From Chiridota heheva (lineage: Eukaryota; Echinodermata; Holothuroidea; Apodida; Chiridotidae): 64,000 nt of DNA. A program made the position numbers and the translations under genes. The first letter of the stretch is position 1. Each line of letters begins with the position of its first letter. Below are positions 1,975-60,000 of this stretch, piece by piece. Under the pieces are notes generated by a model. The model saw only the letters and a program-made list of their open reading frames with translations. It made no database searches and was not told the origin of the DNA. The stretch is from assembly GCA_020152595.1 (NCBI GenBank), contig JAIGNY010000912.1:827001-891000 (forward strand), given 5' to 3'.

Positions 1975-2562
1975 CTGATTTGCAGCCATGAGTAGGCAAA
2001 TGGTCAATGAACTGATTTGCAGCCATAGTCTTAGCCAATAAGCAGACAATAGCAACAACTTTCAATGAATAGGCGTGATTTGCAGTCAAAGTCTTAGCAA
2101 ATAAGCAGACAATAGCAACAACTTCAACCAATGAATAGGCGTGATTTGCAGCCATGAGTAGTCTTAGCCAATAAGCAGACAATAGCAACAACTTTAACCA
2201 ATGAATAGGCGTGATTTGCAGTCATGAGTAGTCTTAGCCAATAAGCAGACAATAGCAACAACTTCAACCAATGAATAGGCGTGATTTGCAGTCATGAGTA
2301 GTCTTAGCCAATAAGCAGACAATAGCAACAACTTCAACCAATGAATAGGCATGATTTGCAGTCATGAGTAGTCTTAGCCAATAAGCAGACAATAGCAACA
2401 ACTTCAACCAATGAATAGGCGTGATTTGCAGCCATGAGTAGTCTTAGCCAATAAGCAGACAATAGCAACAACTTCAACCAATGAATAGGCGTGATTTGCA
2501 GCCATGAGTAGTCTTAGCCAATAAGCAGACAATAGCAACAACTTCAACCAATGAATAGGCAT
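1975..2562 (+). repeat. 70 bp tandem repeat, about 8 copies
   Basis: The unit is 70 bp and includes atgaataggcgtgatttgca, then gtcttagccaataagcagac, then aatagcaacaacttcaacca. The five copies starting at 2201, 2271, 2341, 2411 and 2481 are almost identical. The leftmost copies (1975-2200) are shortened and more diverged. Each full unit carries two CCAAT pentamers, in agCCAATaag and aaCCAATgaa. The minus-strand open frame across the left copies is a by-product of the repeat. Confidence 0.9.
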
Positions 2563-2754
2563 CAAATGTTTGACAAAAATCATTTGTTACCAGCAAAGCA
2601 AATCTTAAACATTACTAACTACTTGCAAATGTCATCTTATATAATTTCAGTACAAAACTACATGTACCTTTCATGTTCAAACCTTATAATTAAATTTTCA
2701 ATTCAAATGCAACTCTTCTTACCACAATTTTGACAGTTTTGGTTTATTTTATTG

Positions 2755-2812
2755 TGTTGAAATTTGACATGTTGAAATTTGACATGTTGAAATTTGACAT
2801 GTTGAAATTTGA
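2755..2812 (+). repeat. 15 bp tandem repeat, 4 copies
   Basis: The unit gttgaaatttgacat is repeated four times head to tail. It lies directly before the presumed 5' region of the pogo/Tigger-like element. Confidence 0.85.
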
Positions 2813-3060
2813 CACAAAATGATACTGTAAAATGGGGTGACTAAGGGACAAAATCTAGAAAAGTTTTTTGAAGACTAATTTTCCAAATTTAACAAGCCAG
2901 TGTTTGTTGTATCTTTCCCATGTTGAAAGTACAAACCAGCAGTGGCTGTAAGTCAGTTAAACAGATCTGAATTAACAAATTTTAAGCTACATGCGCAGAA
3001 ATGAAAATTTCTTCCAAAATGCTCCGAAAAATGGGGTCAATACGGACAACATATTTCAAT

Positions 3061-5940
3061 TTGCCACGCACGTACAGTATAAGCCAAATCGTGTCATAAG
3101 AACTTTAAAAAACATTCTCGAGAAGACGTTAAAAGAGCTGTAGCAGCAGTAAAGTGAGGAATGACATACAGAGCAGCAACAGATACATATGGTATTCCAA
3201 GAAGTGTGATTCACAGACATGCTAAGCACCCCTATACAAGGTGGAATATTCCAGGAAGTGTGATTCACAGACAGGTGGAATATTCCAAGAAGTGTGATTA
3301 AGCTTAGCACCCGATGCAAGGTGGAATATTCCAAGAAGTGTGATTCACAGACATGCTTAGCACCCTGATGCAAGGTGGAATATTCCAAGAAGTGTGATTC
3401 ACAGACATGCTAAGCACCCCGATGCAAGGTGGAATATTCCAAGATGTGTGATTCACAGACATGCTAAGCACCCCGATGCAAGGTGGAATATTCCAAGAAG
3501 TGTTATTCACAGACATGCTAAGCACCCCGATGCAAGGTGGAATATTCCAAGAAGTGTGATTCACAGACATGCTAAGCACCCCGATGCAAGGTAGAATATT
3601 CCAAGAAGTGTGATTCACAGACATGCAAGGTAGAATATTCCAAGAAGTGTGATTCACAGACATGCAGCAGGTGCAAGGTGGAATATTCCAAGAAGTGTGA
3701 TTCACAGACATGCTAAGCACCCCGATGCAAGGTGGAATATTCCAAGAAGTGTGATTCACAGACATGCTAAGCATCCCGATGCAAGGTGGAATATTCCAAG
3801 AAGTGTGATTCACAGACATGCTAAGCACCCAGATGCAAGGTGGAATATTCCAAGAAGTGTGATTCACAGACATGCTAAGCAACCCGATACAAGGTGGAAT
3901 ATTCCAAGAAGTGTGATTCACAGACATGCTAAGCATCCCGATACAAGGTGGAATATTCCAAGAAGTGTGATTCACAGACATGCTAAGCACCCCGATGCAA
4001 GGTGGAATATTCCAAGAAGTGTGATTCACAGACATGCTAAGCACCCCGATACAAGGTGGAATATTCCAAGAAGTGTGATTCACAGACATGCTAAGCACCC
4101 CGATACAAGGTGGAATATTCCAAGAAGTGTGATTCACAGACATGCTAAGCACCCCGATACAAGGTGGAATATTCCAAGTGTGATTCACAGACATGCTAAG
4201 CACCCCGATATAAGGTGGAATATTCCAAGTGTGATTCACAGACATGCTAAGCACCCCGATACAAGGTGGAATATTCCAAGTGTGATTCACAGACATGCTA
4301 AGCACCCTCATACAAGGTGGACAGACAGTACTGGAACCTGCTGTAGAAAAACATATTATTGAAAGAATTATGACCTGTGCCAAGTGGGGATATCCACTAG
4401 ATACACTGGATTTGAGATACCTTGTAAAAAGCTACCTAGAAAAACATGGTATCACTGTGACTACATTCAAGAATAATATGCCAAGAAAGGAATAGGCATT
4501 CAGGTTCCTTAAGAGACACAAGGAGAATGTGACACATCGCATGTGTCAAAATTTTAACCGGTCAAGAGCTGCTGTCTCAAGAACAATTATTACTGCATAT
4601 TTTGATCACTTAACCAAGACCATTTGCAGGTACTGTATACCAGCAAGTAACATTCTCAATTATGATGAGACAAACTTGTCGGATGAGAAAGAAAGTGATA
4701 ATGAAAAGAGGCAGCAAATATCCAGAGCGAATTATGACCCATTCAGAGTTTACGACTTCTTTGATGTTTGCCCGGGCTGCAGATGCAACCCTATTGCCAC
4801 CATATGTTGTTTACAAGGCAATAAATATTTATGACACATGCGACTTTCGGGGACCACCAGGAACATGATATAACAAAAGTAAATCAAGATGGTTTGATAC
4901 CACTGTTTTTCAGATTGGCTTCTTACAATTGCCATGCCATATTTGAACAAAACTAGCTGGACCTAAAGTTGTCATTGGAGACAACCTCAGTTCTCACCTG
5001 ACACTGGAAGACATCTAACTTTGTGAGGATCATGACATAAGCTTTGCTTTCTTCCCAGCAAACTCTACACGTCTTTGTCAACCACTTGATGTTTGCTTCT
5101 TCCAACCAATGAAAATGACATGGCGTCCAATTCTTTCAAAATGGAAGATGGGGCATGGTAGAAAGAATTCTTCTGTCTCCAAGACATGTTCCTACGACTG
5201 TTGAATGAACTGATGACAACTCTTAGTGGTAACAAATATAAAAATCTAATTTCCGGCTTTTCCACTTGTGGGATTTAAAAAAAGGTATTATCAAGTCTAC
5301 CATAAGAACCTAAGCACAACAGAGAAGAGCCTACGGAAAATCTCATCAGAAGACACTATAGATGACTGCATTATGACATTGTTGAATGAAATGTGTTATG
5401 GAGGTGGCAGTGACAAAAAAACAAACAAGGAAAAAGAAGGTAAGAGTGATTCCAGGAAAAAGTGTCATGGCTGCAGACATGCCACAAGACAAAGACAAAG
5501 AAAATGATGGTGAAAGGGAAGCTGATCAATGCGAAAGCGGTGGACAGACCTCATCTGATGAATCTATCTATGGATGTCTCGCAGCAGTATGTCTCATCTG
5601 AAAATGATGATCAAGATGACAGAAATGCTCCTTGTGGAATCTGTTCTGTTGTAAATTTCATTGCTCTGAAACCTGGGATGTGGGTGGTGGTTAGTTTTGC
5701 CTTACTTGCAAGGAAATCAAACAGACTGTACCTTAGGAAAGTTACTAAATTGGTGGATACCGATAGCGGCACCGATAAAAATGAATTTGAAGCATCATTC
5801 TTAAAACTGAGTCAAAAAAGCAGGTTTTTTTTTTCATTTTCAGAAAAGTAAGACAGATGTGTCGTCAACTTTTCACAGATTGTTGTAAAAACATGCAAAC
5901 CAGAAAAGATGAGAAGAGGAATATTGAACTTCAAACAGTG
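3061..5940 (+). pseudogene. pogo/Tigger-like DDE transposase, decayed, with expanded HTH segment
   Basis: This is a degenerate DNA-transposase gene of the psq-HTH/DDE_1 (Tigger/Jerky-like) type. The N-terminus is broken, with a PRTY block near 3061 followed by DVKRAVAAVK, a stop, then GMTYRAATDTYGIPRSVIHRHAK at about 3130-3225. The last part is a helix-turn-helix, and its recognition-helix half is tandemly amplified to 4320. The normal protein order then returns in shifted frames: QGGQTVLEPAVEKHI, KWGYPLDTLDLRYLVKSYL, RMCQNFNRSRAAVSR, then the catalytic-domain blocks NYDETNL, KRGSKYPERIM, LPPYVVYKA, VIGDNLSSHL and FPANSTRLCQPLDV, and GFKK near 5275. A C-terminal block (ALKPGMWVVVSFA...KSNR) and RRGILNFKQ end near 5940. 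Many frameshifts and stops rule out activity. A 5' region at 2813-3060 may belong to the element, but I found no matching terminal inverted repeat. Confidence 0.85.
3190..4320 (+). repeat. 54 bp minisatellite encoding the transposase recognition helix, ~22 copies
   Basis: The unit is 54 bp (18 codons) and encodes NIPRSVIHRHAKHPDARW. Three late copies near 4170-4320 are 51 bp and lack the Arg codon (NIPSVIHRHA). The seed is the single GIPRSVIHRHAKHP segment of the transposase helix-turn-helix at about 3190. About 22 attccaag starts can be counted. The period is a multiple of three, so the forward frame stays open for long runs, and 12 complete helix copies are in frame from 3649 to 4317. Two early copies carry TGG to TAG stops, near 3591 and 3631. 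Two short degenerate copies sit at 3247 and 3278. Confidence 0.93.
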
Positions 5941-6217
5941 GTGAATTCCCACTCAAAATCGTAAGGATTATGGGCTGTTCTCTGTTGAGCAGAACAATTC
6001 CACAATGCACTATAGCTGGATAAGGACTGTTGAGATTCATCAATGAACTTTAGATACGGTACCGCAATTAACACAATTCTATGTCTGTACGGTAATTAAC
6101 GTTAATCATTTATGATTTTATGCACCAGTTGACATATATAACTCATGCTCATGTTGAAAATGTTTGAAAATGTTGTCGCTATGAAGTACACCAGACATGT
6201 GAGTGATGATTTATAAA

Positions 6218-6452
6218 AGTAGCTGAAATTAATCAATTTTCTCATCAAAATAGCTAAGCATTGTCAATTATGCAGAAAATAGGTGAAATTAGCTTGGAAA
6301 ATAGTTGCAATCAGCTAAACAGCTGGTCTCACATGGTGAAATTGATCAATTGTCTCATCCAAATAGCTAAGTATTGTCAATTATGCAGAAAATAGGTGAA
6401 ATTAGCTTGGAAAATAGCTGAAAACAGCTAAATAGCTTAAGTCTCACGTGCC
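6218..6452 (+). repeat. ~116 bp tandem duplication
   Basis: Two adjacent copies, about 6218-6335 and 6336-6452, share aaatagctaag.attgtcaatt, the block atgcagaaaataggtgaaat and tagcttggaaaatag in the same order. Both end in a tctcac(a/g)tg motif. The function is unknown. Confidence 0.8.
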
Positions 6453-7685
6453 TGCATGGTACACCCTGAACGGGATCGTTGAATTCAGAAAACGCAATGT
6501 ATTCCTTCATTAAAACTGATCAAATATGAACATCTTCAAGTAAAGGCAATATATAAAATATCAAATAAACAAACATCCACCAGTTTATTGAATAATTTTG
6601 TCCACTTAATCAATTCAAATTTATGCAAAGACTATATTACAGTTCATACTATTCCCTTACCAATGTGTAATACACATTTCTGTAAATTAATATGCAGACC
6701 TCCTTTTCAAGGTGTAAAATTTAATCTGCTGACAGAAATTTTAGGTTATCAACAAGATAAAAGATTTGAGTGGATATACATAAACTTAACTGAATTTTAT
6801 TCAACCTTTTAACATTTCAGGAATATAATGCAAAATTTTCTAAAGCAGGAAAAGCCTAATTTCTAAAAATAACAATATCATTCTCAAGTCCAAGAAATTG
6901 TACACAAATTAGGTTAAATGTAAACTGACACAAAAACATCAGGCTTTGTGTTATACAAATCTGAAAAAGAAGTGATTGTATCTCATGCTTAAAGGTAATT
7001 ATACAATACAAAGTTTACTTATATAATTATTAAGTCAGAGACTTTCGGCACTGTTATGAGTTATGAAGTACTCCATTTGTTCTAGGAACCCCAGAATAAC
7101 TTGCATGCACTTTCCAAGCCTTGTGCTCTTCTGAACCCCAAAACAGAAAGGTCCAAAGTAATTACTTGATGCAGGTTATGCATGATGGGTGACATATGAT
7201 CAATCTATTCCTCAAACAAAATGAACCACAATCACAGATATTTGTTTTCTCCATACCCAACAATTTTGTTGCATCATAGAAAAATCATAGGAGCAGATAT
7301 AATTTGATGAGATGTTACACAAGTAAAGCTATGTTATTTCATGCATACATGGACTACAATGACATACAGAATGTGTGCTTAATAGGTATCAAGATGAAAA
7401 ATAAGGTTTCTTGCCTCAAAAATACAAGACAAAACATAACAAGGAACAACATTCTTCTTATTCATTACATTGAAAACCTAATGTTACTAAAATTGGCTCA
7501 AAATTACATTCACCAGGCCTAATTAAGGATGCCTTTACCATTTTCAATGTACTTATTGCTTCACATAATATTTACTATTCTAAAGTGCTTTGGTTTTTTC
7601 TCGCATCACCATTACACTTAAAATATACACTTAAACCTCAGAAAAGAAATTTAATTTAATTTCGTTGTCAAAAATCACCTCAATT
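6453..7685. other. No gene recognised
   Basis: This is AT-rich DNA with short open frames only. I found no recognisable protein, RNA gene or strong repeat. Confidence 0.6.
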
Positions 7686-8785
7686 TGTCCCATTTAGGTG
7701 TCCAAGTGCTTGTCACTAACCACCGCCTACTCATTAGCATTCATGACATCACTACCACAACATTAGAACATACGTACAGACCATGACCCATCTGTGTACC
7801 ACATATAGCATAAATCTGATACATCGTTTATGGTGTTTACATCATTTAACACTTCTACATTAGGCCATGCCCACCATGCATTTTAATGACACATGTTGAT
7901 AACATAAGAATGTACACAATAACCAACACAATTATCATGTCCAATATGACACAAAACTGACATACAGTTGCTCATTTATCACTTTTTCAAAATTTTCAGT
8001 TTATGCCCTGCCCACTTATTAATATGCATGAAATCACCACAACAATTATTAGGTCACATCTGCAGACTATGAGCTATCTGTGTACCACACATGATGTGAA
8101 TCCAGTTCATAGTTCTTGAGATATCATGTTTACTTGTGCTTTTTGTTTACAAATTCATATTAAGCCCCGCCCTCCATGCATATTAATGAATTTTCAATGT
8201 TTAATTTCCAAACATGAAACAAAACAGACATGTGGTTGTTAAAAAATAAACATTTCATGATTTTCACTTTAAGCCCTGCGTACTAATTATTATGCATGAA
8301 ATCATCATCAAAAACAATAGGGCACATATACAAGACCATGGGATATCTGTGTACCAAACTTGACATGAATCCAGTTTACCATTCTTGAGATGTTTACAAT
8401 CTCTTTTCAGAAAAATCATATTAAGCCCCGCCCACTATGCATATAATAAAATTCAACGTTTTTACGTCATGAACATGTACACAACAGCTAACATCGTAAT
8501 TAGACCAAATATGAAACAACACAGACATGTGGTTGTTAAAATATGAACATTTCCCGATTTTTACATTAAGCCTGCCTACTCAATAATATGCATGACATCA
8601 CCATCAAAAACAATAGGGCACATCTACTGACCATGGGCTATCTGTGTAACCTATATAATATGAATCCAGAGAATCATTCTTGAGATATCGCGTTTACGAG
8701 CTGGCCGTCACAAACACACAAACACGCATACATACACACGCCATCACGACCGCATAGGTTCCTGATGCTATCGCATAAGAACCAA
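7686..8785 (+). repeat. Two-module interspersed satellite-like repeat, copy 1
   Basis: Two module types alternate. Module A is marked by aagccccgcccactatgcat followed by attaatga, near 7864, 8163 and 8423. Module B is marked by aagccctgcccactcatta then atatgcatgacatcaccacc, near 8007, 8270 and 8569. A and B together recur every ~260-300 bp. B modules carry aatagggcacat and gaccatgggctatctgtgta. The right edge is a CA-rich tract (cacacaaacacgcatacata) and a cgaccgcataggttcc end. A second copy with the same order and end is at 39180-40262. Confidence 0.85.
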
Positions 8786-15505: not shown

Positions 15506-18500
15506 CTGTAAAACAATGGAGATAGAAGCAATGATAATACAGCTCAATCGTAATTCCTAGCAATTTGCAAGATGTAAGCAATGCAATGGGTTCTGTTGTT
15601 TCCTTTTTTTTTTGACAAAGAATATTTACAAAATTCTTTTTAACATGCGATTCGGAGCTTATCAAAAGTTGAAAGAAAGCTGATAATCATTTTCAGAAAA
15701 TAAGATCCTTTTTCAGAAGAGGTGCAATGTTTCTTTGCTTAATTGGGGTGGGGGGAGCGGTAAAACTTTTGTTGATATATTTGGGGTAAAAATTCCACAA
15801 GATTTTTTTTTAGGAAACTTGATATGGACCGGCACAAGTCCATTGGAGAATAAGTCTATTGCATATCTACTTAATGTATTATTTATTCATTTTAATTTTA
15901 TTATTCTTTCTTTCTTTCTTTTTTTTTGAAGGAAGAGGGGGAGGGGGGCAGAGAGGGGTGCAATTTGTGGACAACCTTTCCAATGGGTACTTTTTAGACA
16001 TTATGTTCAGAGCTTACATCAACAGATCAGTGTGTGTAGAGATATAAATGTATGTAATGGCAGCAGGTAAGTTATACAGTCGGTTGACATGATGACATGT
16101 CCGATAGTATGAATGGGCCTCACTCACTGGCAGCAGATGATGGAAACAAAGGTTTATTTACACCTAATTTTGGTATATAAATGCAACAAACCCAGGGGCA
16201 CAGATTAAGGGGTGTGGAAGAATAAGCATATCACTCGGAGATATGAAGAAATTGTTTTAAAATGTTGTGCGATTCTCTAATTGAATTTACTTTGTATTCA
16301 TTTTTCACTTTGCAAAATATTGGGGGGTTTAAAGTCCACCTTACCCCCTCCCACCCAAACTCTCCTGATTGTACCTCCCCTGTTGTATCATCATATCAGG
16401 CTGCAATAAAACGTAACAACTTTCTGTTTTATCATGGAAGTGACTAGGGTACCTCTTATTTTGGGGGAAGGTAAGAGGGTAGGTAATGCTTACAGAGTTT
16501 TGACCAAACATACTGTTCTTTATAATCAATGTTTTTTTAGGTTTTTTTTTACGGTAACTTTGCCAACATTTTCCCCACTTTAAATAAACTGGGTGGAAGG
16601 GATCACAACCATATTCCTGTTTGTGGTAATAAACAACAAAAACTCATGGACATTGTGAAATTTGATTGAACTACCAATCCTAACATGACAAATTTAGGTA
16701 CTTTTTAAAGTTAATTTTTTTAAATCCCTCCGAACCATTAGCATATGACCCCCCCACCCCTCTCTTAACCAGCAATCAGAGGTTAACTCCGATCAATGCT
16801 TGTACTCATTTTCACAGCCTGAGTGGAGCTGAGGCAAACAGGATTAAGTGCCTGCATGGCCTAATAACACAACACAGCTGCTGGCCCCAACCACTGATCA
16901 CCACTGCATTCATTATGTTAATGTCACTTACAGTATGTACATACTGTACTTACGACCTTCTTAATCACAATTAAAGTAGGAACATAGTTAATGCTTTTGC
17001 TTTTGTTAATTACATTAATGTATTGTATAACTTTAAAATTATCTATTGATTTTCATTTCTTTATATACAGTTTCTTATCTGACATATGACAGTGCCATGA
17101 ATGAAACCATGAATGCCTTGCAGGGGTCAAGTTTTATCATTTTCACCACTGTTCCACAGAACATTACTTTTTCAAATAATACTGTTCCAGATCAGTTTTC
17201 ACTGTTCCAACACTTTTGCCGATAACAGGACAAATTCTTTTCTTCAAAATGGGCAATTTACAACTAATTTGTAAATTAGTTGATAAGTCCAAATATGTAT
17301 ATCGGATATTGGAATTTACATGATGTAGCATCCAGTTGTGTACAGTGGTACAAATGCAAGCAGCCTTGCAAATAAGTATTCATGATGAAATTACAGACAT
17401 GGTTGGAAAAGCTTTTTCTTAGGGAAGAAATTATTTGTTATGATAATCTTATTTGACAACATGGATTTTTTTTTTGAGCAGGAATCTAGTTAAAGGTCAC
17501 TGATGTCTCAATGTTGTGAAAAGAACACTGTTCCACCAGAACAGTGAGGTTTCAAAATTCACTGTTCCCGCATGAAAAACACTGTTCTCGGAAAAGTGGA
17601 AATTTAAACCTGCCTTGTATCCCCTCTTTTGTTTCTAAATTTCTATCCAACAAGGGCCATATATGATACTGCCAGTATTAATCAACTGTTCTTTTTCACT
17701 TTTAATGTGTTTTGCTTGGTGGATACAGTAGGTGGTAATATTTGATTGGTTGTTGTGTTGTGTTTGCATTAATATCTGTATGCATCATCGTTTGGTGTTG
17801 TGTTTGCATTAATATCTGTATGCATCATCGTTTGTTGATGTTGTGTTTGCATTAATATCTGTATGCACCATTGTTTGTTGTGTTTGCATTAATATCTGTA
17901 TGCATCATCGTTTGTTGATGTTGTGTTTGCATTAATATCTGTATGCACCATTGTTTGTTGTGTTTGCATTAATATCTGTATGCACCATCGTTTGTTGTTG
18001 TGTTTGCATTAATATCTGTATGCATCATCGTTTGGTGTTGTGTTTGCATTAATATCTGTATGCATCATCGTTTGTTGATGTTGTGTTTGCATTAATATCT
18101 GTATGCACCATTGTTTGTTGTGTTTGCATTAATATCTGTATGCACCATCGTTTGTTGTTGTGTTTGCATTAATATCTGTATGCATCATCGTTTGCTGTTG
18201 TGTTTGCATTAATATCTCTATGCATCATCGTTTGTTGTTGTGTTTGCATTAATATCTGTATGCATCATCGTTTGCTGTTGTGTTTGCATTAATATCTCTA
18301 TGCATCATCGTTTGTTGATGTTGTGTTTGCATTAATATCTGTATGCATCATCGTTTGCTGTTGTGTTTGCATTAATATCTGTATGCATCATCGTTTGTTG
18401 ATGTTGTGTTTGCATTAATATCTGTATGCACCATTGTTTGTTGTGTTTGCATTAATATCTGTATGCACCATCGTTTGTTGTTGTGTTTGCATTAATATCT

Positions 18501-21500
18501 GTATGCATCATCGTTTGCTGTTGTGTTTGCATTAATATCTGTATGCATCATCGTTTGTTGATGTTGTGTTTGCATTAATATCTGTATGCACCATTGTTTG
18601 TTGTGTTTGCATTAATATCTGTATGCACCATCGTTTGTTGTTGTGTTTGCATTAATATCTGTATGCATCATCGTTTGCTGTTGTGTTTGCATTAATATCT
18701 CTATGCATCATCGTTTGTTGTTGTGTTTGCATTAATATCTGTATGCATCATCGTTTGTTGTTGTTTGCATTAATATCTGTATGCATCATCGTTTGGTGTT
18801 GTGTTTGCATTAATATCTGTATGCATCATCGTTTGTTGTTGTGTTTGCATTAATATCTGTATGCATCATCGTTTGTTGTTGTTGTGTTTGCATTAATATC
18901 TGTATGCATCATCGTTTGCTGTTGTGTTTGCATTAATATCTGTATGCATCATCGTTTGTTGTTGTGTTTGCATTAATATCTGTATGCATCATCGTTTGTT
19001 GTTGTTGTGTTTGCATTAATATCTGTATGCATCATTGTTTGTTGATGTTGTGTTTGCATTAATATCTGTATGCATCATTGTTTGTTGATGTTGTGTTTGC
19101 ATTAATATCTGTATGCATCATCCTTTGTTGATGTTGTGTTTGCATTAATATCTGTATGCACCATTGTTTGTTGTGTTTGCATTAATATCTGTATGCATCA
19201 TCGTTTGTTGTTGTGTTTGCATTAATATCTGTATGCATCATCGTTTGCTGTTGTGTTTGCATTAATATCTCTATGCATCATCGTTTGTTGATGTTGTGTT
19301 TGCATTAATATCTGTATGCACCATTGTTTGTTGTGTTTGCATTAATATCTGTATGCACCATCGTTTGTTGTTGTGTTTGCATTAATATCTGTATGCATCA
19401 TCGTTTGCTGTTGTGTTTGCATTAATATCTCTATGCATCATCGTTTGTTGTTGTGTTTGCATTAATATCTGTATGCATCATCGTTTGGTGTTGTTTGCAT
19501 TAATATCTGTATGCATCATCGTTTGTTGTTGTGTTTGCATTAATATCTGTATGCATCATCGTTTGTTGTTGTGTTTGCATTAATATCTGTATGCATCATC
19601 GTTTGTTGTTGTGTTTGCATTAATATCTGTATGCATCATCGTTTGCTGTTGTGTTTGCATTAATATCTGTATGCATCATCGTTTGCTGTTGTGTTTGCAT
19701 TAATATCTGTATGCACCATCGTTTGTTGTTGTGTTTGCATTAATATCTGTATGCATCATCGTTTGGTGTTGTGTTTGCATTAATATCTGTATGCACCATC
19801 GTTTGTTGATGTTGTGTTTGCATTAATATCTGTATGCACCATTGTTTGTTGTTGTGTTTGCATTAATATCTCTATGCATCATCGTTTGTTGTTGTGTTTG
19901 CATTAATATCTGTATGCACCATCGTTTGTTGTTGTGTTTGCATTAATATCTGTATGCATCATCGTTTGCTGTTGTGTTTGCATTAATATCTGTATGCATC
20001 ATCGTTTGTTGATGTTGTGTTTGCATTAATATCTGTATGCACCATTGTTTGTTGTGTTTGCATTAATATCTGTATGCACCATCGTTTGTTGTTGTGTTTG
20101 CATTAATATCTGTATGCATCATCGTTTGCTGTTGTGTTTGCATTAATATCTCTATGCATCATCGTTTGTTGTTGTGTTTGCATTAATATCTGTATGCATC
20201 ATCGTTTGTTGTTGTTTGCATTAATATCTGTATGCATCATCGTTTGTTGTTGTGTTTGCATTAATATCTGTATGCATCATCGTTTGTTGTTGTTTGCATT
20301 AATATCTGTATGCATCATCGTTTGGTGTTGTGTTTGCATTAATATCTGTATGCATCATCGTTTGTTGTTGTGTTTGCATTAATATCTGTATGCATCATCG
20401 TTTGTTGTTGTGTTTGCATTAATATCTGTATGCATCATTGTTTGTTGTTGTGTTTGCATTAATATCTGTATGCATCATCGTTTGCTGTTGTGTTTGCATT
20501 AATATCTGTATGCATCATCGTTTGTTGTTGTGTTTGCATTAATATCTGTATGCATCATCGTTTGTTGTTGTGTTTGCATTAATATCTGTATGCATCATCG
20601 TTTGTTGTTGTGTTTGCATTAATATGGAGGAGGGATGGAGAGGAGATGGAGGGGGGATGGAGAGGGGATGGAAAGGAGGAGTGGGGGAAGATGTCAGTTC
20701 TGAGTAACTTTTGTTCTGTTGTGCATGAAGTTTGATACTTTTTGCGCAAAACTTGCAAAAACGTTATTCTTCTCACACTCTAGCATTATGTAGATATCAA
20801 CCATAATTTCAATTAAAACGGGAACTTTTAGCAAAAAGAGATGACGCGTGGAGGCTGTATGTAGTATATCTGCCCCGTGTGCACCCCCTGGATCCGCGCC
20901 TGCACTGATTAGCCCTCTCTAGGATCACACACTTCACTTCCTTAGCACAAGGAACAGGCTAGAAAAGGTGACCCAAACAAAGCCTGCTTCACCCCGACCC
21001 TGTCATTTTACTGTGGCTGACAGGAATACTTCTCAGCGATCGAAACACAACTCGCGCCGCTTACTGGTGTATTGTATAAATGGCCGCCATTTTGAAAATC
21101 AATATGGCTGTCATTCAGAAAAATAGTTCTGCGGTTATTTGGTATTCAAAATGCAGTTTACTAAAAATTCAATGTGTTTCAAGGTTTTTAAATCAAATAA
21201 TTTAAGTTTTTTAATTTATTTAGCAGTTATTTTGAAATCCCATATGGCCACCAAATAGATGTCATGCGAATAGCATAGTTGGATTGCTCGACATTAAAAA
21301 CAGGGGGTTTGCCCCTATAACCAAGTCCCTAAGTGCTCTAAAATGTGAAAATACTGCCAGTTTTATTATATTTTATTTCAATTATTTTATTTTTCATCAT
21401 AATTTATGCAAATAACTCAAAACCCCCAAAGTGAGCATCTGGAGTTATTATATCACAATAATGTACACATTGTGATGATTCCAAAGGTACCAAATTTCTT

Positions 21501-24500
21501 TTGATTGTAATTTTTTCTGACACCAAATGTATTTATGATAGCCTATATGTTGAAGAAAGAAAGATTTTGAAAAGACCGATATTGTTCATTTCCTGATTCA
21601 ATCTTGTGGTCACAGCATAGCCAACAAATGAGACCGTTACATTAGAAATACCCACATATTAATCTGTTCGAAAAGAAGCTAGATATTGCATTATAAATAA
21701 GCTTTTGTTGTCACTTAACAAAGACTTTGAGAGTATAAGATATGCTTCGTTGAGTTTTCTGCATGTGTAACTTTCGGGAAATCTCGTGGACATAAAAAAC
21801 TTTTGTTATAGCGAGATTTTGTGAGCCAAGTTTGGTTCGCGAGATCTTGTATAAGTTGAGGGGGCTAATACGCCTTAGTGGCATGGTATTGCATGGGCAC
21901 TGGAGCATGCATGCTGTGGGAATATGAAATGCAGTAAGTATATCATCAGTAAAAATCAAGAAGTTTGAACAGTGAAATGACACTTTAGTGCATGCCCCTT
22001 CTGACAAATAAGTGCAAGGCTTTTCTGACACTCTAGTCACTAGTGCATGCCCCTTCTTCAGCCTCCAGCCCAGGACACCCAGTCTTACCTTCTTAACTCA
22101 AAGAGAAGCATTCCCAAGCAAGGAAGGATAAATGGCATCATAAAATAATTGTTGAGAGACGGCTTGATGCAGGCCAACACGGAGCTTAAAATGGTGATGG
22201 TTAACATCATCAATTTAAACGATTTCCTGTTGAAAAGAAAGAAAATATGGTTAAGAATTTTTACTTGAGAGTTCTGCAGTAAATTGTGCATCAGTAATTA
22301 CTGTATACTACTTTTCATCTGTAAACACAATGGTGCTCATTGTGATGGCCAGGTTTTGCGGGTAGAACAAATCAGTAGAGCACACGCTTGCCTTTTCAAT
22401 TTTTTTTTTCATCAGTGCGTTATAAAACTCTTGTAGGTTTGAAAGCAATAGAAAATTAATATCCTTAGTTACAGTAGTATAATTATAATTTTCTCTACTT
22501 TTGCTATTAGTCCTTTTTACACAGACCTGCCAGCCTTTAGGATCACCAAACTGTATTCTGGAACTACAAAAGCTGTATTTTTGATAAAAAAACTGTACTC
22601 TTCAAACAAAATGTACAAAACAAAGGTTTACTGTGGCTGAAAAAAAATTACCACTGTACTTTCAGTTTCTCTTATTGTACGCGGCAGTTGCCTTTTTGCA
22701 TTTCTAAAGTGCTTCATTTTTTAATGTACGTTGATGGCATGGAATCCCTGCTGCTTGCCAATAGATCTTGCTAATTAAACAGTCTGATAGAACTGGAGTG
22801 CTCAACTTGATCGGAACTCTGTTGCAGGTAGCTTGCCTTATGCATAATTAACTTGTAGTCTACACTTTTTGGCGGCAGCCGCAAATGGTTATAAATCGTA
22901 TTCTGAATCTGAATCGGTTAAGTCGGCAAAAATCCTTCAATAGGACATAAACGCCAACCGAGCGTAAAAAGAATTAGTAAAAAAACAAACAAAAACAATA
23001 AAAAAATAAAATAAAGACTAAATAAATAGATAAATAAATTTAAAAAAAAAAAAACGTATTCTGGTGCCAAAAAACGTACAATCGTATTCTCAACATTTTC
23101 CTGTATTAAATATGGCAAAATCGTACTAGTTGGCAGGTCTTTTTACAGTGTACAGTATGTAAAGGATATTTGTACTGTGGCACAATGCTTCAAAAATGAA
23201 TAACAGAGTGAAGTTGCTGTTACCAGCATAAACACAACGCAAAGCCATCCATGGGTCAATTTTGTAATGAACAATAATTAGGCCAATATCATGGAAAACA
23301 AATCTACAAAGAATTATTCAGTTCAGGAAGTCGCTATTTTATGTCTTAAACAGCATATACTTAAAATAATGTGTACTGCATGATGGTGTGTGCACAGACC
23401 TGTGGTTTTTTTGTGAACTGTTCCTAGAATCCTTAACGTCAATGAATATTTGGAGGCAACATTAATGCTTTCAAATCTATTACAAACTTGAAAGTAACAG
23501 CATGTTCCATTAAAATTGCATTGGATTGACCATTTCATTGCATTGGATTGACCATTTCATTGCATTGACCATTTCATTGCATTGATTGCCATTTCATTGC
23601 ATTGGATTGACCATTTCATTGGATTGACCATTTCATTGGATTGACCATTTCATTGCATTGGATTGACCATTTTAGAGCATTGGATTGACCATTTCATTGC
23701 ATTGACCATTTCATTGCATTGGATTGACCATTTCATTGCATTGGATTGACCATTTCATTGCATTGGATTGACCATTTCATTGCATTGGATTGACCATTTC
23801 ATTGCATTGGATTGACCATTTCAGAGCATTGGATTGACCATTTCAGAGTATTGGATCGACCATTTCAGAGCATTGAATCGACCATTTCATTGCATTGGAT
23901 TGACCATTTCAGAGCATTGGATTGACCATTTCAGAGCATTGGATTGACCATTTCAGAGCATAGGATTGACCATTTCAGAGCATTGGATTGACCATTTTAG
24001 AGCATTGGATTGACCATTTCAGAGCATTGGATTGACCATTTCAGAGCATTGGATTGACCATTTCAGAGCATTGAATTGACCATTTCAGAGCATTGGATTG
24101 ACCATTTCAGGGCATTGGAATGACCATTTCAGAGCATTGGATTGACCATTTCAGAGCATTGGATTGACCATTTCAGAGCATTGGATTGACCATTTCAGAG
24201 CATTGGATTGATCATTTCAGAGCATTGGATTGACCATTTCAGAGCATTGGATTGACCATTTCAGAGCATTGAACTGACCATTTCAGAGCATTAAATTGAC
24301 CATTTTAGAGCATTGGATTGACCATTTTAGAGCATTGGATTGACCATTTCAGAGCATTGGATTGACCATTTCAGAGCATTGGATTGACCATTTCATTGCA
24401 CTGGATTGACCATTTCAGAGCATTGGATTGACCATTTCAGAGCATTAGATTGACCTTTTCAGAGCATTGGATTGACCATTTCAGAGCATTGGATTGACCA

Positions 24501-27500
24501 TTTCAGAGCATTGGATTGACCATTTCAGAGCATTGGATTGACCATTTCAGAGCATTGGATTGACCATTTCAGAGCATTAGATTGACCATTTCAGAGCATT
24601 GGATTGACCATTTCAGAGCATTGGATTGACCATTTCAGAGCATTGGATTGACCATTTCAGAGCATTGGATTGACCATTTCAGAACATTAAATTGACCATT
24701 TCAGAGCATAGGATCGACCATTTCGGAGCATTGGATCGAACATTTCAGAGCATTGGATTGACCATTTCAGAGCATTGGATTGACCATTTCAGAGCATTGA
24801 AATGACCATTTCAGAGCATTGGATTGACCATTTCAGAGCATTGGATTGACCATTTCAGAGCATTGGATTGACCATTTCAGAGCATTGGATTGACCATTTC
24901 AGAGCATTAGATTGACCATTTCAGAGCATTGGATTGACCATTTCAGAGCATTGGATTGACCATTTCAGAGCATTGGATTGATCATTTCAGAGCATTGGAT
25001 TGACCATTTCAGAGCATTGGATTGACCATTTCAGAGCATTGAATTGACCATTTCAGAGCATTAAATTGACCATTTTAGAGCATTGGATTGACCATTTTAG
25101 AGCATTGGATTGACCATTTCAGAGCATTGGATTGACCATTTCAGAGCATTGGATTGACCATTTCATTGCACTGGATTGACCATTTCAGAGCATTGGATTG
25201 ACCATTTCAGAGCATTAGATTGACCTTTTCAGAGCATTGGATTGACCATTTCAGAGCATTGGATTGACCATTTCAGAGCATTGGATTGACCATTTCAGAG
25301 CATTGGATTGACCATTTCAGAGCATTAGATTGACCATTGGATTGACCATTTCAGAGCATTGGATTGACCATTTCAGAGCATTGGATTGACCATTTCAGAG
25401 CATTGGATTGACCATTTCAGAACATTAAATTGACCATTTCAGAGCATAGGATCGACCATTTCGGAGCATTGGATCGAACATTTCAGAGCATTGGATTGAC
25501 CATTTCAGAGCATTGGATTGACCATTTCAGAGCATTGAAATGACCATTTCAGAGCATTGGATTGACCATTTCAGAGCATTGGATTGACCATTTCAGAGCA
25601 TTGGATTGACCATTTCAGAGCATTGGATTTACCATTTCAGAGCATTGGATTGACCATTTCAGAGCATTGGATTGACCATTTCAGAGCATTGGATTGACCA
25701 TTTCAGAGCATTGGATTGACCATTTCAGAGCATTGAATTGACCATTTCAGAGCATTGTGATTTTCTTAAGTAAATTCTTAAGTTTTTAATTGTCTATCAT
25801 AATTTCTTGAAGGGGTGTTACGAATTCTTTTTAAGTCTTTAAAAAAAATTACATGCAGATTTTGAGCTGTCTGCCCAACCATACATCACAGAATAAGCAT
25901 ATCTTAAAAATTACTTAAACACGATGAGCCACAACTCAAAACCTTATGTAAAAGAACTTCTCCTAAAATATAAACTACTTTCTGATATGCATTCAACTCT
26001 AGGGATACAACAAATAGACCTTTGTTTGTTTGTCTGTTTGTTTAACCTTTAACCCTGTTTCTTGTGCTACAAAACAAAACTGCAAGCTTAAACAGAACCT
26101 GATTGTTAACCAAATGACTCACAAGCATATGACTTGCATGAGACTAATATTTCTGTAGCTCAATAACATCATTGAATGTGAAATATTAATCTAACATATT
26201 GTATGCGAACAAGTATTGTCAGCTACAAATTGCTACTCATACGGGTATCTCAATACATGTGATTATAAATCTGCACAAACAATGTGATATTCAATCTAGG
26301 CTTAAAAAAATACAAATAAAAGTCACTCGCCAGCCTCTTATACAGATTGGTGATTAAATAAGATGAAACCCGTATCTCAACTTGCCAAGTATTTCAGCTA
26401 TTCGCCAACGCTTTTAAGTGAAATTAGACAATTTTTGCACAACTAGCATGCCTCTGTATTGCCTTTTTCCTGGGCCCGACTTTCATGACCGTACGTATGC
26501 AAAATACATAGCAAGACTACATGCACACATTAAAGTAGGTGGTTTAAAAAACAAATTAAATCAACATGCACAAACTTACTTAGATTTTTAAACATTAATT
26601 TCAGGCCTACTGGCAGAAACAAGTAGGCCCCTATGGCAGAAAGTTTACACTCAATGCCTGTCGCAGCACTGGCCAGTATACATACACATACTGTGTGCAT
26701 ATCTGTACTGTACGTAGTACATGGTCCGATATCAGCGGAGCTCAGTGAATTTGTTTCTGGAATAGTTTGGAAAGTATTCTATGCATAAGGAGAGCTCCAA
26801 AGCTCCACCCACTTAAAGAAATAAGATAGCGATAGAGATAGCGAGTCTAAAACCTTTCATTTCCATCAAGCAAAGACATTACTCGGAAGGATATAGTCTT
26901 CCCACTCATATTGTGCAGCATATTGGTTGTGCAGCATATTGGTTCAGCCTTGTTAGCTTTGTTTGCATATGTTGATAGGTAGAGGGGGTCAGAACGATGT
27001 CATTTGTCAAGGTCTTCTAACCTTGACATAAATCTCTATTTTATTCCATTGCTATTGGCTTCAGTTGTCTTACGCATCACCCAGTCCAGTATTATTAGAA
27101 CATTAGAAAAATGAAACGAGACATTACATCGCCTAGTTTGACTCCCATCTTAACTTGAAGCCATTCTGACACCACCCCTTTATCTATTACAGCACATCCA
27201 TTACCTTCATGAAGTATTTTAGCCATTGCGATGATTTTCTGTGGGATACCACCTTCATGAAGTATTTTAGCCATTGCGATGATTTTAAGCTGCCAATATT
27301 TCTCATAGGCTCTTCCTGTGTACTGAGTCAAACGCTTTTTCGAAGTCAACAAAGGTAATATAGAGGGTTAACTGCCATATGACATGTTCGATGACCTGTT
27401 CTAATATGTTGCGAAGTATGAATATTTGTTCCGAAGTGTTCCTTCCTCTTCTGAACCCTGGTGTTTAACTCTCAGCTTGCTGTCAACTCCGTTTCTGATT

Positions 27501-30500
27501 CTATTGATCAAAACTCTCCCAAACACTTTTCTAGAACCTGTCCATCTACACTTACTCATTCTCAAGATATCAATGCTGTACTGTTTTATCTCATTGGAAA
27601 GCATTGATGCCTTACCAATAGAGTAAATTGATCTCACATTGCAGCAGCCAATGTAAGTAATTTTTTTTGGCTGGATAACTGATGTATTTGGCCGGTGAGC
27701 TTTCTTGTGGCTTTGACCCACTGGCGTCATGCTATCCACAAACCACAGATCGTTATCCATTGGAATCTGGATCGCCGTTGTCCTAAAACCATTTCCAGCA
27801 TATGCTGGTATATGAGATACACGTACAGTTTCCGTAACAATCAAATGAAGTGGATGGGTTGTTAGCCCATCGCAGCAGGTTTCTTGAACTGGATGGGTTG
27901 TTAGCCCATCGCAGCAGGTTTCTTGAAGTGGATGGGTTGTTGGCCTATCGAAACAGGTTTCTTAGACCGGATGAGTTATTATAGCCCATCGAAGCAGGTT
28001 TCTTGAACTGGATGGGTTGTTAGCCCATCACAGCAGGTTTCTTGAACTGGATGGGTTGTTAGCCCATCGCAGCAGGCTCTTGAACTGGATGGGTTGTTAG
28101 CCCATCGCAGCAGGTTTCTTGAACTGGATGGGTTGTTAGCCCATCGCAGCAGGCTCTTGAACTGGATGGGTTGTTAGCCCATCACAGCAGGCTTCTTAAA
28201 CTGGATGGGTTGTAAGCCCATCGCAGCAGGTTTCTTGAACTGGATGGGTTGTTAGCCCATCGCAGCAGGCTCTTAAACTGGATGGGTTGTTAGCCCATCG
28301 CAGCAGGCTTCTTGAACTGGATGGGTTGTTAGCCCAACGCAGCAGGTTTCTTGAACTAGATGGGTTGTTAGCCCATCGCAGCAGTATTGTTGAACTGGAT
28401 GGGTTGTTAGCCCATCGCAGCTTTTTTGAACAGGATGGGTTGTTAGCCCATCGCAGCAGGTTTCTTAAACTGGATGGATTGTTAGCCCATCGCAGCAGGT
28501 TCCTTGAACTGGATGGGTTGTCAGCTCATCGCAGCAGGCTTGATGAAAATGGACTTTCGGCAAAACTTTTGCAAAATACCATCTGCTCCTAGTCATACTT
28601 CATTGTAGAATTACAGTAACATTTATTTTTAAAACAATGACATCACTGATAATTTCAGGGCATCAGAAAAGATTCATAAAGAAAAAAAGAAGTATACGAA
28701 GTGGAGTTCCAAAATGCATCAGAATGCTGTGACTGATACCACGAAAATAAAGATATCACTTTCACTTTAAAAAAAATATCTCATGCTTGAATCTTTAATT
28801 TTGAACATAAAAACATCTTGTAAAAACGATTATGAAAATTATGATTGACTTTATCCATTTGCTTTGGGGACAAAGTAAAAGCAAATGGCTCAGCTACATC
28901 CACAGTACATATTAAGAATACTATACAACCTAAATGCCCCTTTTATCAATATTTGTTTGTTCTAATAACAAATTTAACAAAATAGACTTTGAGAGCGAAT
29001 ATTATGTTAGAGTTCAGAAATTAAAGTTGGTAACATTACAGAGCATGCAGTGCCATACAAAAATATTGGGTGGGGGGATAGGGTCTGAAATGGCCAATTA
29101 ATTTTGGTTTAGTCGAAGGCTAAAGCCAGCAAGTAGCCTGAAAGGCGTGTGATCCAGGGGCCTGCCTAAGCTCTGCGAATTAAGTCATTCCTGTAGTTAA
29201 AATTATGCCTAAACATACCCACTTCAACATCATGTTGAATGTAACAGATCAGAAACTCACCTGCTCCCTTGAAACAAAGCTGGATAATACCTCCGAGGAT
29301 ACCATAATGCCACGCCACACAGCACCACCCAAATGATAGCCATCTCATCTAACAGTTGACCAACCAAACTGAGGGTAGCATGAAAATATATTGAGAAAGA
29401 ACCGACCACCATCAAAAGTATCCACATGACGTTGATGGAAGAGCTGACCTGCTGGGAGTACGGTCTGTACAGGTGTACCAAAAGCGGTGGCACCACCAGG
29501 AATATAGCATTACTAGCCTGAGGAGAAAAATCAAACGAAGGAGCATTATGGGACCATTCTCCATTTACATGTGTGACAGACTGCAGAATGGTCCTGGCAG
29601 ATCCTGGGGTCTGCTTAGGTCAATTTTGCAGTGCGGTATTTGACAGGAATATCAATGGAAATAGGCTAGCAGACCCCTTGGAGACCCAAAGGGATCTGAT
29701 ACCTGGGTGTATGCTAGCAGATCCTGGGGGTATGTTAGCAGATCCCTGGGGGTATGTTAGCAGATCCCTGGGAGAGGCTACGAGTCTGTTAGCAGATCCA
29801 TGTGAAACCCTGTGGGTCTGCTAACATATACCTGAAAGACCCTGTAGGTCTGATAGGGCAATGAATACTCCCTCTAGTGTATGTCAGATTGTGGACTTGT
29901 TTTTTTTAAATCCTATTTTCTTGTTAAATGCACTGAAACAGCCATATCTCCACCTGGAACACACCATTAAAGATATATGAACGTAAATGTATGGTTAAAT
30001 TGCTCTAAAATCTTTCAACTAGAATGCCAATTTGTAATTAGGTTCTGCACAAAATGCTGGTAGCAACAGTAGAGCATCTTGAATGTACAGTAGTGCTACA
30101 CTTATTCTTAAAGTAAAATACACAGAGCCTATGGTAATAAAATCAGGATATATTTCATGCATTTTTATCCAGCTGTGTATTCTAATTATCATTTATGGGA
30201 GCATACCAGTTAAAAATAGTAATGCTTTATTTTAAGCATGGCCTTTTTATCATGACAGTCATTTTTTTTAATAAGCTGATGTTTTCTTTTTGCTTTTTTG
30301 TTAGTGAGTGAGTGCTGACGTTTATTGACTGACTGGCCGGCCTCACGAAACTAAAACAAGGCTCCATATATTGCCTATGAAAAAAGCTATGCCTATACAT
30401 ATAATAATCTTGCATCGCAAATGGTTTATTTGCAGAGAAAATATCACAAAGATTTTACAGTTTTGACACTAGAATTTGTATCAAAACTGTTTTATGTGTA

Positions 30501-45395: not shown

Positions 45396-46238
45396 ATGAA
45401 CACAGTGGTATCTACACACAGTGGTATCTACACACAGTGGTATCTACACACAGTGGTGTCTACACACAGTGGTGTCTACACACAGTGGTGTCTACACACA
45501 GTGGTGTCTACACACAGTGGTGTCTACACACAGTGGTGTCTACACACAGTGGTGTCTACACACAGTGGTGTCTACACACAGTGGTGTCTACACACAGTGG
45601 TGTCTACACAGTGGTGTCTACACAGTGGTGTCTACACAGTGGTATTTACACAGTGGTGTCTACACAGTGGTGTCTACACAGTGGTGTCTACACAGTGGTG
45701 TCTACACAGTGGTGTCTACACAGTGGTGTCTACACAGTGGTGTCTACACAGTGGTGTCTACACAGTGGTGTCTACACAGTGGTGTCTACACAGTGGTATC
45801 TACACAGTGGTATCTACACAGTGGTATCTACACAGTGGTATCTACACAGTGGTATCTACACAGTGGTATCTACACAGTGGTATCTACACAGTGGTATCTA
45901 CACAGTGGTATCTACACAGTGGTATCTACACAGTGGTATCTACACAGTGGTATCTACACAGTGGTATCTACACAGTGGTATCTACACAGTGGTATCTACA
46001 CAGTGGTATCTACACAGTGGTATCTACACAGTGGTATCTACACAGTGGTATCTACACAGTGGTATCTACACAGTGGTATCTACAGTGGTATCTACACAGT
46101 CGTATCTACACAGTCGTATCTACACAGTCGTATCTACACAGTCGTATCTACACAGTCGTATCTACACAGTCGTATCTACACAGTCGTATCTACACAGTCG
46201 TATCTACACAGTCGTATCTACACAGTCGTATCTACACA
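45396..46238 (+). repeat. 14/16 bp minisatellite, ~58 copies in homogeneous blocks
   Basis: Successive blocks can be read. 16 bp cacagtggtatctaca comes first (from 45400), then 16 bp cacagtggtgtctaca to about 45608. 14 bp cagtggtgtctaca runs to about 45790, 14 bp cagtggtatctaca to about 46090, and 14 bp cagtcgtatctaca to 46235. All three forward frames are open for over 280 codons because the unit has no stop in any frame. This is not coding evidence. Confidence 0.95.
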
Positions 46239-57099: not shown

Positions 57100-60000
57100 C
57101 CCGACCAATGTGTAGGGGAGTGTCCCCCGCCGTGTGGTGTTTCATGATCTCTTAGATATCGCCATTTTTAGTGTCAAATCATCTTACATAGTACCTCCGA
57201 AAGAATGAGCTTAGTAAAACAGGTTTTCATGACTATTTTTTGCACAGTTTAAATTGCAATCTTTCTAATTCTTGTTTTGCGCAGAGGGCAGTGTCCCGCA
57301 AGGCAGTGTCCCGCACCGTGCGGCGTGCTTGATCTCTCAGATATCGTGACTTATAGTTTCAAACCATGTCAAATAGTACCTCAGTCTGTAAGAATGAGTA
57401 TAGTGAGACACTGGGGTTTTCATTACTATTTTTTGCAGTTTAAATTGCAATCTTTTTCATTCCTTTTTTGTGCAGCGGGAGTGTCCCCCGTCGTGTGGTG
57501 TTTCATGATCTCTCAGATATCGCCATTTTTAGTGTCAAATCACGTTAAATAGTACCTCCGAAAGAATGAGGTTAGTGAAACAGGTTTTCATGACTATTTT
57601 TTGCACAGTTTAAATTGCAATCTTTCTAATTCTTGTTTTGTGCAGAGGGCAGTGTCCCGCAAGGCAGTGTCCCGCACCGTGCGGCGTTCTTGATCTCTCA
57701 GATATCGTGACTTTTAGTTTCAAACCATGTTAAAAAGTACCTCTGTAAGAATGAGTATAGTGAAACAGGTTTTCATGACTATTTTTTGCACAGTTTAAAT
57801 TGCAATTTTTCTAATCCTTGTTTTGTGCAGAGGGCAGTGTCCCCCACCATGTGGTGTTTCTTGATCTCTCAGATACCGCGATTTTTAGTGTCAAACCATA
57901 TTAAATAATATCTCTGAAAGAATGAGTATAGTAAAACAATTTTTCATGACTACATTTTGCAAAGTTTTAAATTGCAATCTTTCTAATCCTTGTTTTGTTC
58001 AGGGGGAAGTGTCCCCCACCGTGTGGTGTTTCTTGATCTCTGAGATAACGTTTGTTAGTGTCAAGCCATGTTAAATAGTACCTACGAACAGACGAAAGAA
58101 TGAGTATAGTGAAACAGGTTTTCATACCTATATTTTGCACAATTTAAATTGTATTGTTTCTAATCCTTGTTTTGTGCAGGGGTGAAGTGTCCCCACCATG
58201 TAGTGTTTCTTGATCTATAATATACCGCGATTGTTAGTGTCAAGCCATGATAAATCGTACCTCCAAAAGAATGAGTATAGTGAAACAGTTTTGTATGACT
58301 ATTTTCTGCACAGTTTAAATTGCTATCTTTATCATTCTTGTTTTGTGCAAGGAGAGTATCCCCCGCCGTGAGGTGTTTAATGATCTCTCAGATATCGCCA
58401 TTTTTAGTATAAAATCATGTTAAATAGTACCCCGAAAGAATGAGTATAGTGAAACAGGTTTTCATGACTATTTTTTGCAGTTTAAATTGCAATCTTTCTA
58501 ATTCTTGTTTTGCGCAGAGGGCAGTGTCCCGCACCGTGCGGCGTTCTTGATCTCTCAGATATTGTGACTTTTAGTTTCAAACCATGTTAAATAATACCTC
58601 TGTAAGAATGAGTATAGTGAAACAGGGTTTCATGGTTATTTCTTGTTTAGCTTAAATTGTAATTTGTCTAATCTTTGTTTTGTGCAAAGGGAAGTGTCCC
58701 CCACCGTTTCTTGATCTCTCAGATACCACGATTTTTAGTGTCAAACCATGTTAAATTTTACCTTCAAAATAATGAATATTTTGAAACAGGTTTTCATGAC
58801 TAATTTTTCCACAGGTTGAATTGCAATCTTTCTAATCGTTGTTTTGTGCAGTGGGAAGTGTCCCTCATCGTGTGGTGTTTTATGATCTCTCAGATCATTT
58901 TTAGTGTCAAACCATGTTAAATAGTACCTCCGAAAGAATGAGCTTAGTGAAACAGGTTTTTATGACTATTTTTTGCACAGTTTAAATTGCAATCTTTCTA
59001 ATTTTTGTTTTGCGCAGAGGGCAGTGTCCCGCAAGGCAGTGTCCCGCACCGTGCGGCGTGCTTGATCTCTCAGATATCGTGACTTATAGTTTCAAACCAT
59101 GTTAAATAGTACTTCTGTAAGAATGAGTATAGTGAGACAATGGGGTTTTCATTACTGTTTTTTGCAATTTAAATTGCAATTTTTTCCTTCCTTTTTTGTG
59201 CAGCGGGAGTGTCCCCCGTCGTGTGGTGTTTCATGATCTCTCAGATATTGCCATTTTTAGTGTCAAATCATGTTAAATAGTACCTCCGAAAGAATGAGTA
59301 TAGTGAAACAGGTTTAATGACTATTTTTTGCACAGTTTAAATTGCAATCTTTCTAATTCTTGGTTTGTGCAGAAGGCAGTGTCCCGCCCCGTGCGGCGTT
59401 CTTAATCTCTCAGATATCGTGACTTTTAGTTTTAAACCATGTTAAATAGTACTTCTGTAAGAATGAGTATAGTGAGACAGGCTTTCATGATTATTTTTTG
59501 CACAGTTTAAATTGTATTGTTTGTAATCTTTGTTTTGTGCAGGGGTGAAGTGTCCCCACCATGTAGTGTTTCTTGATCTATAATATACCGCGATTGTTAG
59601 TGTCAAGCCATGATAAATCGTACCTCCAAAAGAATGAGTATAGTAAAATAGTTTTTCATGACTATTTTCTGCACAGTTTAAATTGCTATCTTTATCATTC
59701 TTGTTTTGTGCAAGGAGAGTATCTCCCGCCGTGAGGTGTTTTATGATCTCTCATATACCGCGATTTTTAGTATAAAATCATGTTAAATAGTACATCTGAA
59801 GGAATAAGTATAGTAAAACAATTTTTCATGACTAGTTTTTTTCACAGTTTAAATTGTAACCTTTAATCCTCGTTTTGTGTAAGCGCAGTGTCCCGCATCG
59901 TGTGGTTTTTTTTCATCTCTCAGATATCGCCATTTTTAGTGTCAAACCATGTTAAATAGTACCTCCGAAAGAATGAGTATAGTGAGACAGGTTTTCATGA

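Follow-up and report, generated by a model that had tools for sequence, protein, structure and literature searches.

Introduction

Minisatellites derived from transposable elements have been described, a minisatellite being an array of up to about 100 copies (PMC6947457). In the sections of that paper cited here, they resemble the array reported below in that a short unit is repeated head to tail in tens of copies and the founder lies inside a transposable element, and very short flanking repeats have likewise been proposed at their origin. Most of the examples given there are retroelements or MITEs, and the flanking repeats proposed measure 5-10 bp (PMC6947457), whereas the present array was founded by transposase coding sequence and shares words of only three bases. 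A second likeness is to the PGBD5 gene of the lancelet, in which 60-bp and 108-bp tandem repeats overlap exons of a transposase-derived gene and two genome versions give different copy numbers, as the cited part of that paper reports (PMC3902484). However, PGBD5 is a conserved domesticated piggyBac gene, while the gene that hosts the present array is dead and of the pogo type. Third, the pogo superfamily, as set out in the cited part of PMC7386202, has HTH_psq among its listed N-terminal domains and a DDE catalytic domain, which here is DDE_1. The element here differs in that it is decayed, no convincing terminal inverted repeats were found for it, and an array follows the helix.

The locus lies in a window of 64 kb, by which we mean the whole stretch of DNA that was analysed, and all positions are those of the window unless stated otherwise. 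Searches of an open-access library showed no report of this array; minisatellites from transposable elements are already known. We conclude that the array is almost certainly a minisatellite whose birthplace was a copy of a pogo-type DNA transposon that had already died. It would then illustrate neatly how a minisatellite can start in transposon coding sequence and have a long open frame for free, and such a frame is a warning against calling open frames of this kind genes.

Structure of the array

The array was located with Tandem Repeats Finder and by counting anchors, and its features are as follows.

3194..4321, plus strand: 54-bp minisatellite in 22 units, of which the seed is the first; 2-3 partial and frame-shifting, 9-10 shortened, 20-22 with a 3-bp loss
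3358..3360, plus strand: stop in unit 4, array frame
3592..3594, plus strand: stop in unit 8, array frame
3631..3633, plus strand: stop in unit 9, array frame, by a change identical to that of unit 8
3634..4362, plus strand: longest sense open stretch, 242 aa and a stop, units 10-22

The motif ATTCCA, used as the anchor that delimits the units, gives 22 starts, the first at 3194 and the last at 4273, with the right edge of the array at 4321. Tandem Repeats Finder reports two rows of period 54, at 3302-3626 (6.0 copies, score 601) and at 3626-4321 (13.2 copies, score 1189), and one row of period 162 at 3273-4321 (score 1685). The count of about 22 copies of a 54-bp repeat, made in an earlier note from the letters alone, is thus borne out, and the short units, repeated head to tail in a number within about 100, are those of a minisatellite. 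The copy number of minisatellites varies between individuals.

The unit translates as IPRSVIHRHAKHPD(A/T)RWN. Unit 1, at the left end of the array, is the seed copy and is one of the 15 units (of 22) with a length of exactly 54 bp. Units 2, 3, 9, and 10 measure 34, 46, 39, and 48 bp, and units 20 and 21 measure 51 bp; unit 22, which merges into the right edge, has the identical 3-bp loss, so that one Arg codon is absent from units 20-22, just as had been described. The frame is shifted by two partial copies, units 2 and 3, so that the seed is not in the frame of units 4-22. The earlier note had therefore placed the seed correctly at the left edge but not in the frame of the units that follow it. 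In-frame stops are present in three units (4, 8, and 9), one more than the note had counted. The stops in units 8 and 9 are most simply explained as one change that spread with duplication. The open stretch had been read as 12 full helices in one frame, which fits units 11-22 provided that the final three are counted despite the missing Arg codon; its codons run from 3634 to 4359 across units 10-22. This stretch stops just beyond the array and never reaches the frame of the transposase body.

The transposase around the array

Two parts of a transposase flank the array, as seen by comparison with two distant relatives from the same genome, L005 and L006.

3116..3214, plus strand: psq-type helix-turn-helix (HTH) of a decayed transposase (tblastn with L005, 39% identity, E 0.001)
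4316..5275, plus strand: remainder, or body, of the decayed transposase (tblastn, L005 and L006 pieces), with stops and frame changes throughout

The HTH is interrupted by an in-frame TGA at 3155-3157, and its final helix is the seed copy of the array. The Pfam profile HTH_psq scores 19.6 bits (E 7.4e-4) on the seed piece at 3158-3280, slightly under the cut-off of 20.4, and 23.7 bits (E 3.8e-5) on the array, which exceeds it. The match of the array spans positions 22-38 of the 45 in the profile; therefore, the unit is the end of the domain and not a whole HTH.

The body starts at 4316 with the block GGQTVL, directly right of the array, and by homology the array sits at the junction of HTH and body, just past the recognition helix. 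Pieces of L005 and L006 support the body by tblastn up to 5183 (E 2e-12 to 1.7e-18 and 1.5e-20), L006 aligning at 45-55% identity in three pieces within 4595-5183; the part at 5180-5275 is weak (E 0.76). Pfam finds DDE_1 in the open piece at 5019-5204 (E 4.8e-6, 26.7 bits against a cut-off of 22). Both the HTH_psq domain, which scores 35.1 bits in L005, and the DDE catalytic domain of a pogo superfamily transposase are thus found. Counted by eye on the tblastn alignment, with one stop taken as a position, 35 positions lie between GDN and LDV; ranges of the spacing between the last two catalytic residues that include 35 occur for several families in the cited part of PMC7386202. A search for inverted repeats over 2560-8000 gave nine pairs, none convincing as element termini.

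Judged from its sequence, the host is a dead pogo-type transposase. Pfam and the relatives L005 and L006 agree with the earlier description of the unit as the recognition-helix end of a psq-type HTH from a pogo-like transposase. The wording "pogo/Tigger-like" holds as far as pogo-type, while membership in Tigger, or in any subfamily, is not settled. That the transposase is dead is upheld by the stops and frame changes in the body and the TGA in the HTH.

Relatives in the genome

The genome searched comprises 1.1 billion bases in 3744 contigs, and its size and repeat content point to a eukaryote. A protein search with the 69-aa block that follows the array gave four matches from nine scored candidates, namely the block itself and three distant relatives (L005, L006, and L007) with 36-44% identity. 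L005 is the best kept, with an open stretch of 166 aa that holds a whole psq domain leading straight into the counterpart of the GGQTVL block; this stretch lies at 1288-1785 of its own sequence (G000:C3389). Candidate identities for L005 are a better preserved element and an exon of a host gene. L006 has the post-array block and an open DDE_1 stretch of 285 aa; its helix region escaped both tblastn and Pfam (0 families), and decayed remains of it were read by eye. L007 shows no helix region.

Tandem Repeats Finder gives no row in L005 or L007 and a single 32-bp row in L006 (93-172), which is unrelated to the 54-bp unit, and the 54-bp array is present in none of the three. L005 clearly has a single helix and no array; for L006 and L007 the finding is just that no array is present. 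Single-helix transposases elsewhere had been named beforehand as counting against a multi-helix protein, and in part this is what was found, L005 having one helix and no tandem repeat. DNA searches of the genome with 696 bases of the array and with 1679 bases of the body, in which common words were skipped and only the best candidates scored, each returned only the locus itself. A scan of viral contigs with the post-array block gave 31 pattern stretches and no confirmed relative.

Register of the helix and body frames

The distance from ATT of a unit to GGTGGA, which reads GGTAGA in units 8 and 9, is 1 mod 3 in 20 of the 22 units, the seed and the last unit included. The exceptions are units 2 and 3, both partial, where it is 2 mod 3. 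In the frame of the body, GGTGGA opens the GGQTVL block, which from 4316 is 2 mod 3, whereas the frame of the array is 1 mod 3. In those 20 units the helix frame is thus off by one base relative to the body, and the helix frame of no unit enters the frame of the body. The transposase does resume after the array, as the earlier note had it, but in another frame. Since 20 of the 22 units share the mismatch, the defect belongs to the unit itself. Most simply, this copy of the transposase was already frame-broken before the expansion. It is possible that a later defect was spread among the units by conversion, which requires more steps.

The order of events bears on a further alternative, that the expansion took place during the working life of the transposase, producing a variant with several recognition helices that decayed afterwards. 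A coding founder and a unit length divisible by three are in keeping with this alternative. However, a variant of that kind is hard to reconcile with a register defect that extends from the seed to the last unit, or with the lack of a 54-bp array in all three relatives, and we consider it very unlikely.

Openness and constraint of the array frame

Does the array encode a protein? The earlier note suggested a transposase-derived protein of tandem helices that would bind DNA multivalently. An open stretch of 242 aa across 13 units, with an HTH_psq match above the cut-off, is in keeping with such a protein. The opposite strand was used as a control for openness.

3304..4431, minus strand: antisense open stretch, 375 aa, 0 Pfam families

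From stop to stop, the antisense run of 375 aa is longer than the sense run of 242 aa. In the segment 3273-4321, the antisense frame has two stops and a longest run of 338 aa, compared with four stops and 229 aa for the sense frame; when the segment is widened to 3194-4321 to take in the frame-shifting units, both frames have five stops each. When the 54-mer was shuffled, at least two of the six frames were open in 3815 of 5000 trials, and two are open in the real unit; an open frame is therefore expected in a unit whose length is a multiple of three. Ten other arrays of the window were examined, and nine of them reach at most 140 aa. The tenth, a 14-bp array (ACACAGTGGTATCT, 58 copies, 45400-46238), is open for 279 aa in each of the three plus frames, because its unit is not a multiple of three and no stop is met in any register of that strand. 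The 54-bp array is more open than most of its neighbours, as a multiple-of-three unit would be.

Substitutions and length changes were compiled by hand from the unit alignments, leaving out the partial units 2, 3, 9, and 10 and two edge positions of unit 22. The 12 distinct substitutions relative to the consensus comprise four synonymous, six non-synonymous, and two stops; a narrower machine count over 14 full units gave four, three, and two. Random change would yield 20-26% synonymous changes and about 3% stops. The synonymous share (4/12) is slightly above expectation, as a protein under selection would have it, but not significantly (P 0.20-0.37 over three transition weights), while stops are if anything in excess (P 0.05-0.06). 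Three of the five distinct length changes in the array are multiples of three (P 0.21). There is no detectable protein constraint in this sample, which with 12 substitutions is small enough that weak constraint could be missed.

A functional tandem DNA-binding protein would have a continuous, constrained frame, and what is found instead is a frame with stops in 3 of 22 units and no significant synonymous excess. Stops and frame-shifting units, which had been named in advance as evidence for a plain repeat, are indeed present in the one assembly, though this is only part of what had been asked for. A search of PDB sequences gave one chance match (E 0.38). We reject the functional multi-helix protein because of the stops, the match limited to part of the domain, the longer antisense run, and the lack of detectable constraint; with the register mismatch, these leave the proposed multivalent binding unsupported and make such a protein extremely improbable. 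Equally, we give almost no credence to the weaker proposal that the 242-aa stretch is transcribed and translated to a repetitive basic peptide of recognition helices, a new protein by way of minisatellite expansion. Were the peptide made, a transposase would directly have given rise to a new repetitive protein; no observation here points that way.

The array as DNA

The junction of adjacent units forms a 12-bp palindrome, TGGAATATTCCA, which raises the question of whether the array works as DNA, for example as a set of candidate protein-binding sites. The palindrome occurs at 19 of the 21 unit junctions, within 3242-4278, being missing before units 9 and 10, and it is absent elsewhere in the window. 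However, the palindrome arises simply from the joining of units and disappears in those with the stop change; one and two units fold as single strands no better than shuffled sequences (z -0.30 to -0.47), and the DNA search of the genome found no second locus. A function as DNA is thus very unlikely. Expansion driven by hairpins was also considered, and it is rejected on the same folding result.

Other searches of the locus were negative. Rfam at gathering thresholds gave no match, ARAGORN with the bacterial code gave none, and a promoter and terminator scan of 3100-3200, of a kind unsuited to a eukaryote, gave no site. Pfam found no family at E 0.01 in nine other open stretches of the window.

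Origin of the array

We suggest that the founding event in the dead transposon was the duplication of some 54 bp, reaching from the recognition helix up to where the GGQTVL block begins. The first duplication would probably have occurred by replication slippage or by end joining at a very short shared sequence, with slippage or unequal exchange enlarging the array afterwards. Given a coding founder and a unit length divisible by three, one frame is open by inheritance, and no protein would have been made or selected for. We infer this order of events, the mechanism of expansion, and the absence of a product from the structure of the locus.

The left flank (TATGGTATTCC), the unit junction (GGTGGAATATTCC), and the right edge (GGTGGACAG) have the three-base words GGT and TGG in common. 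Slippage or end joining would be compatible with such words at the breakpoints, provided that a short filler was added. An origin of minisatellites with flanking repeats of 5-10 bp is proposed in the cited part of PMC6947457; since the words shared here are shorter than that, we only infer the mechanism of birth.

Several other minisatellites are present in the window, and the neighbourhood therefore forms them readily. The long arrays, minisatellite or satellite-like, are 40 bp x 71, 22 bp x about 100, 39 bp x 18, and about 170 bp x 23 (74% matches), at 17756-20625, 23518-25762, 27846-28538, and 57301-61286; the first three, like the 14 bp x 58 array, differ in sequence from the 54-bp unit. 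Two shorter arrays lie just upstream of the dead transposase, one of 70 bp (7.7 copies) at 2026-2560 and a perfect one of 15 bp x 4 at 2755-2814, neither more than about 1.2 kb away from the 54-bp array.
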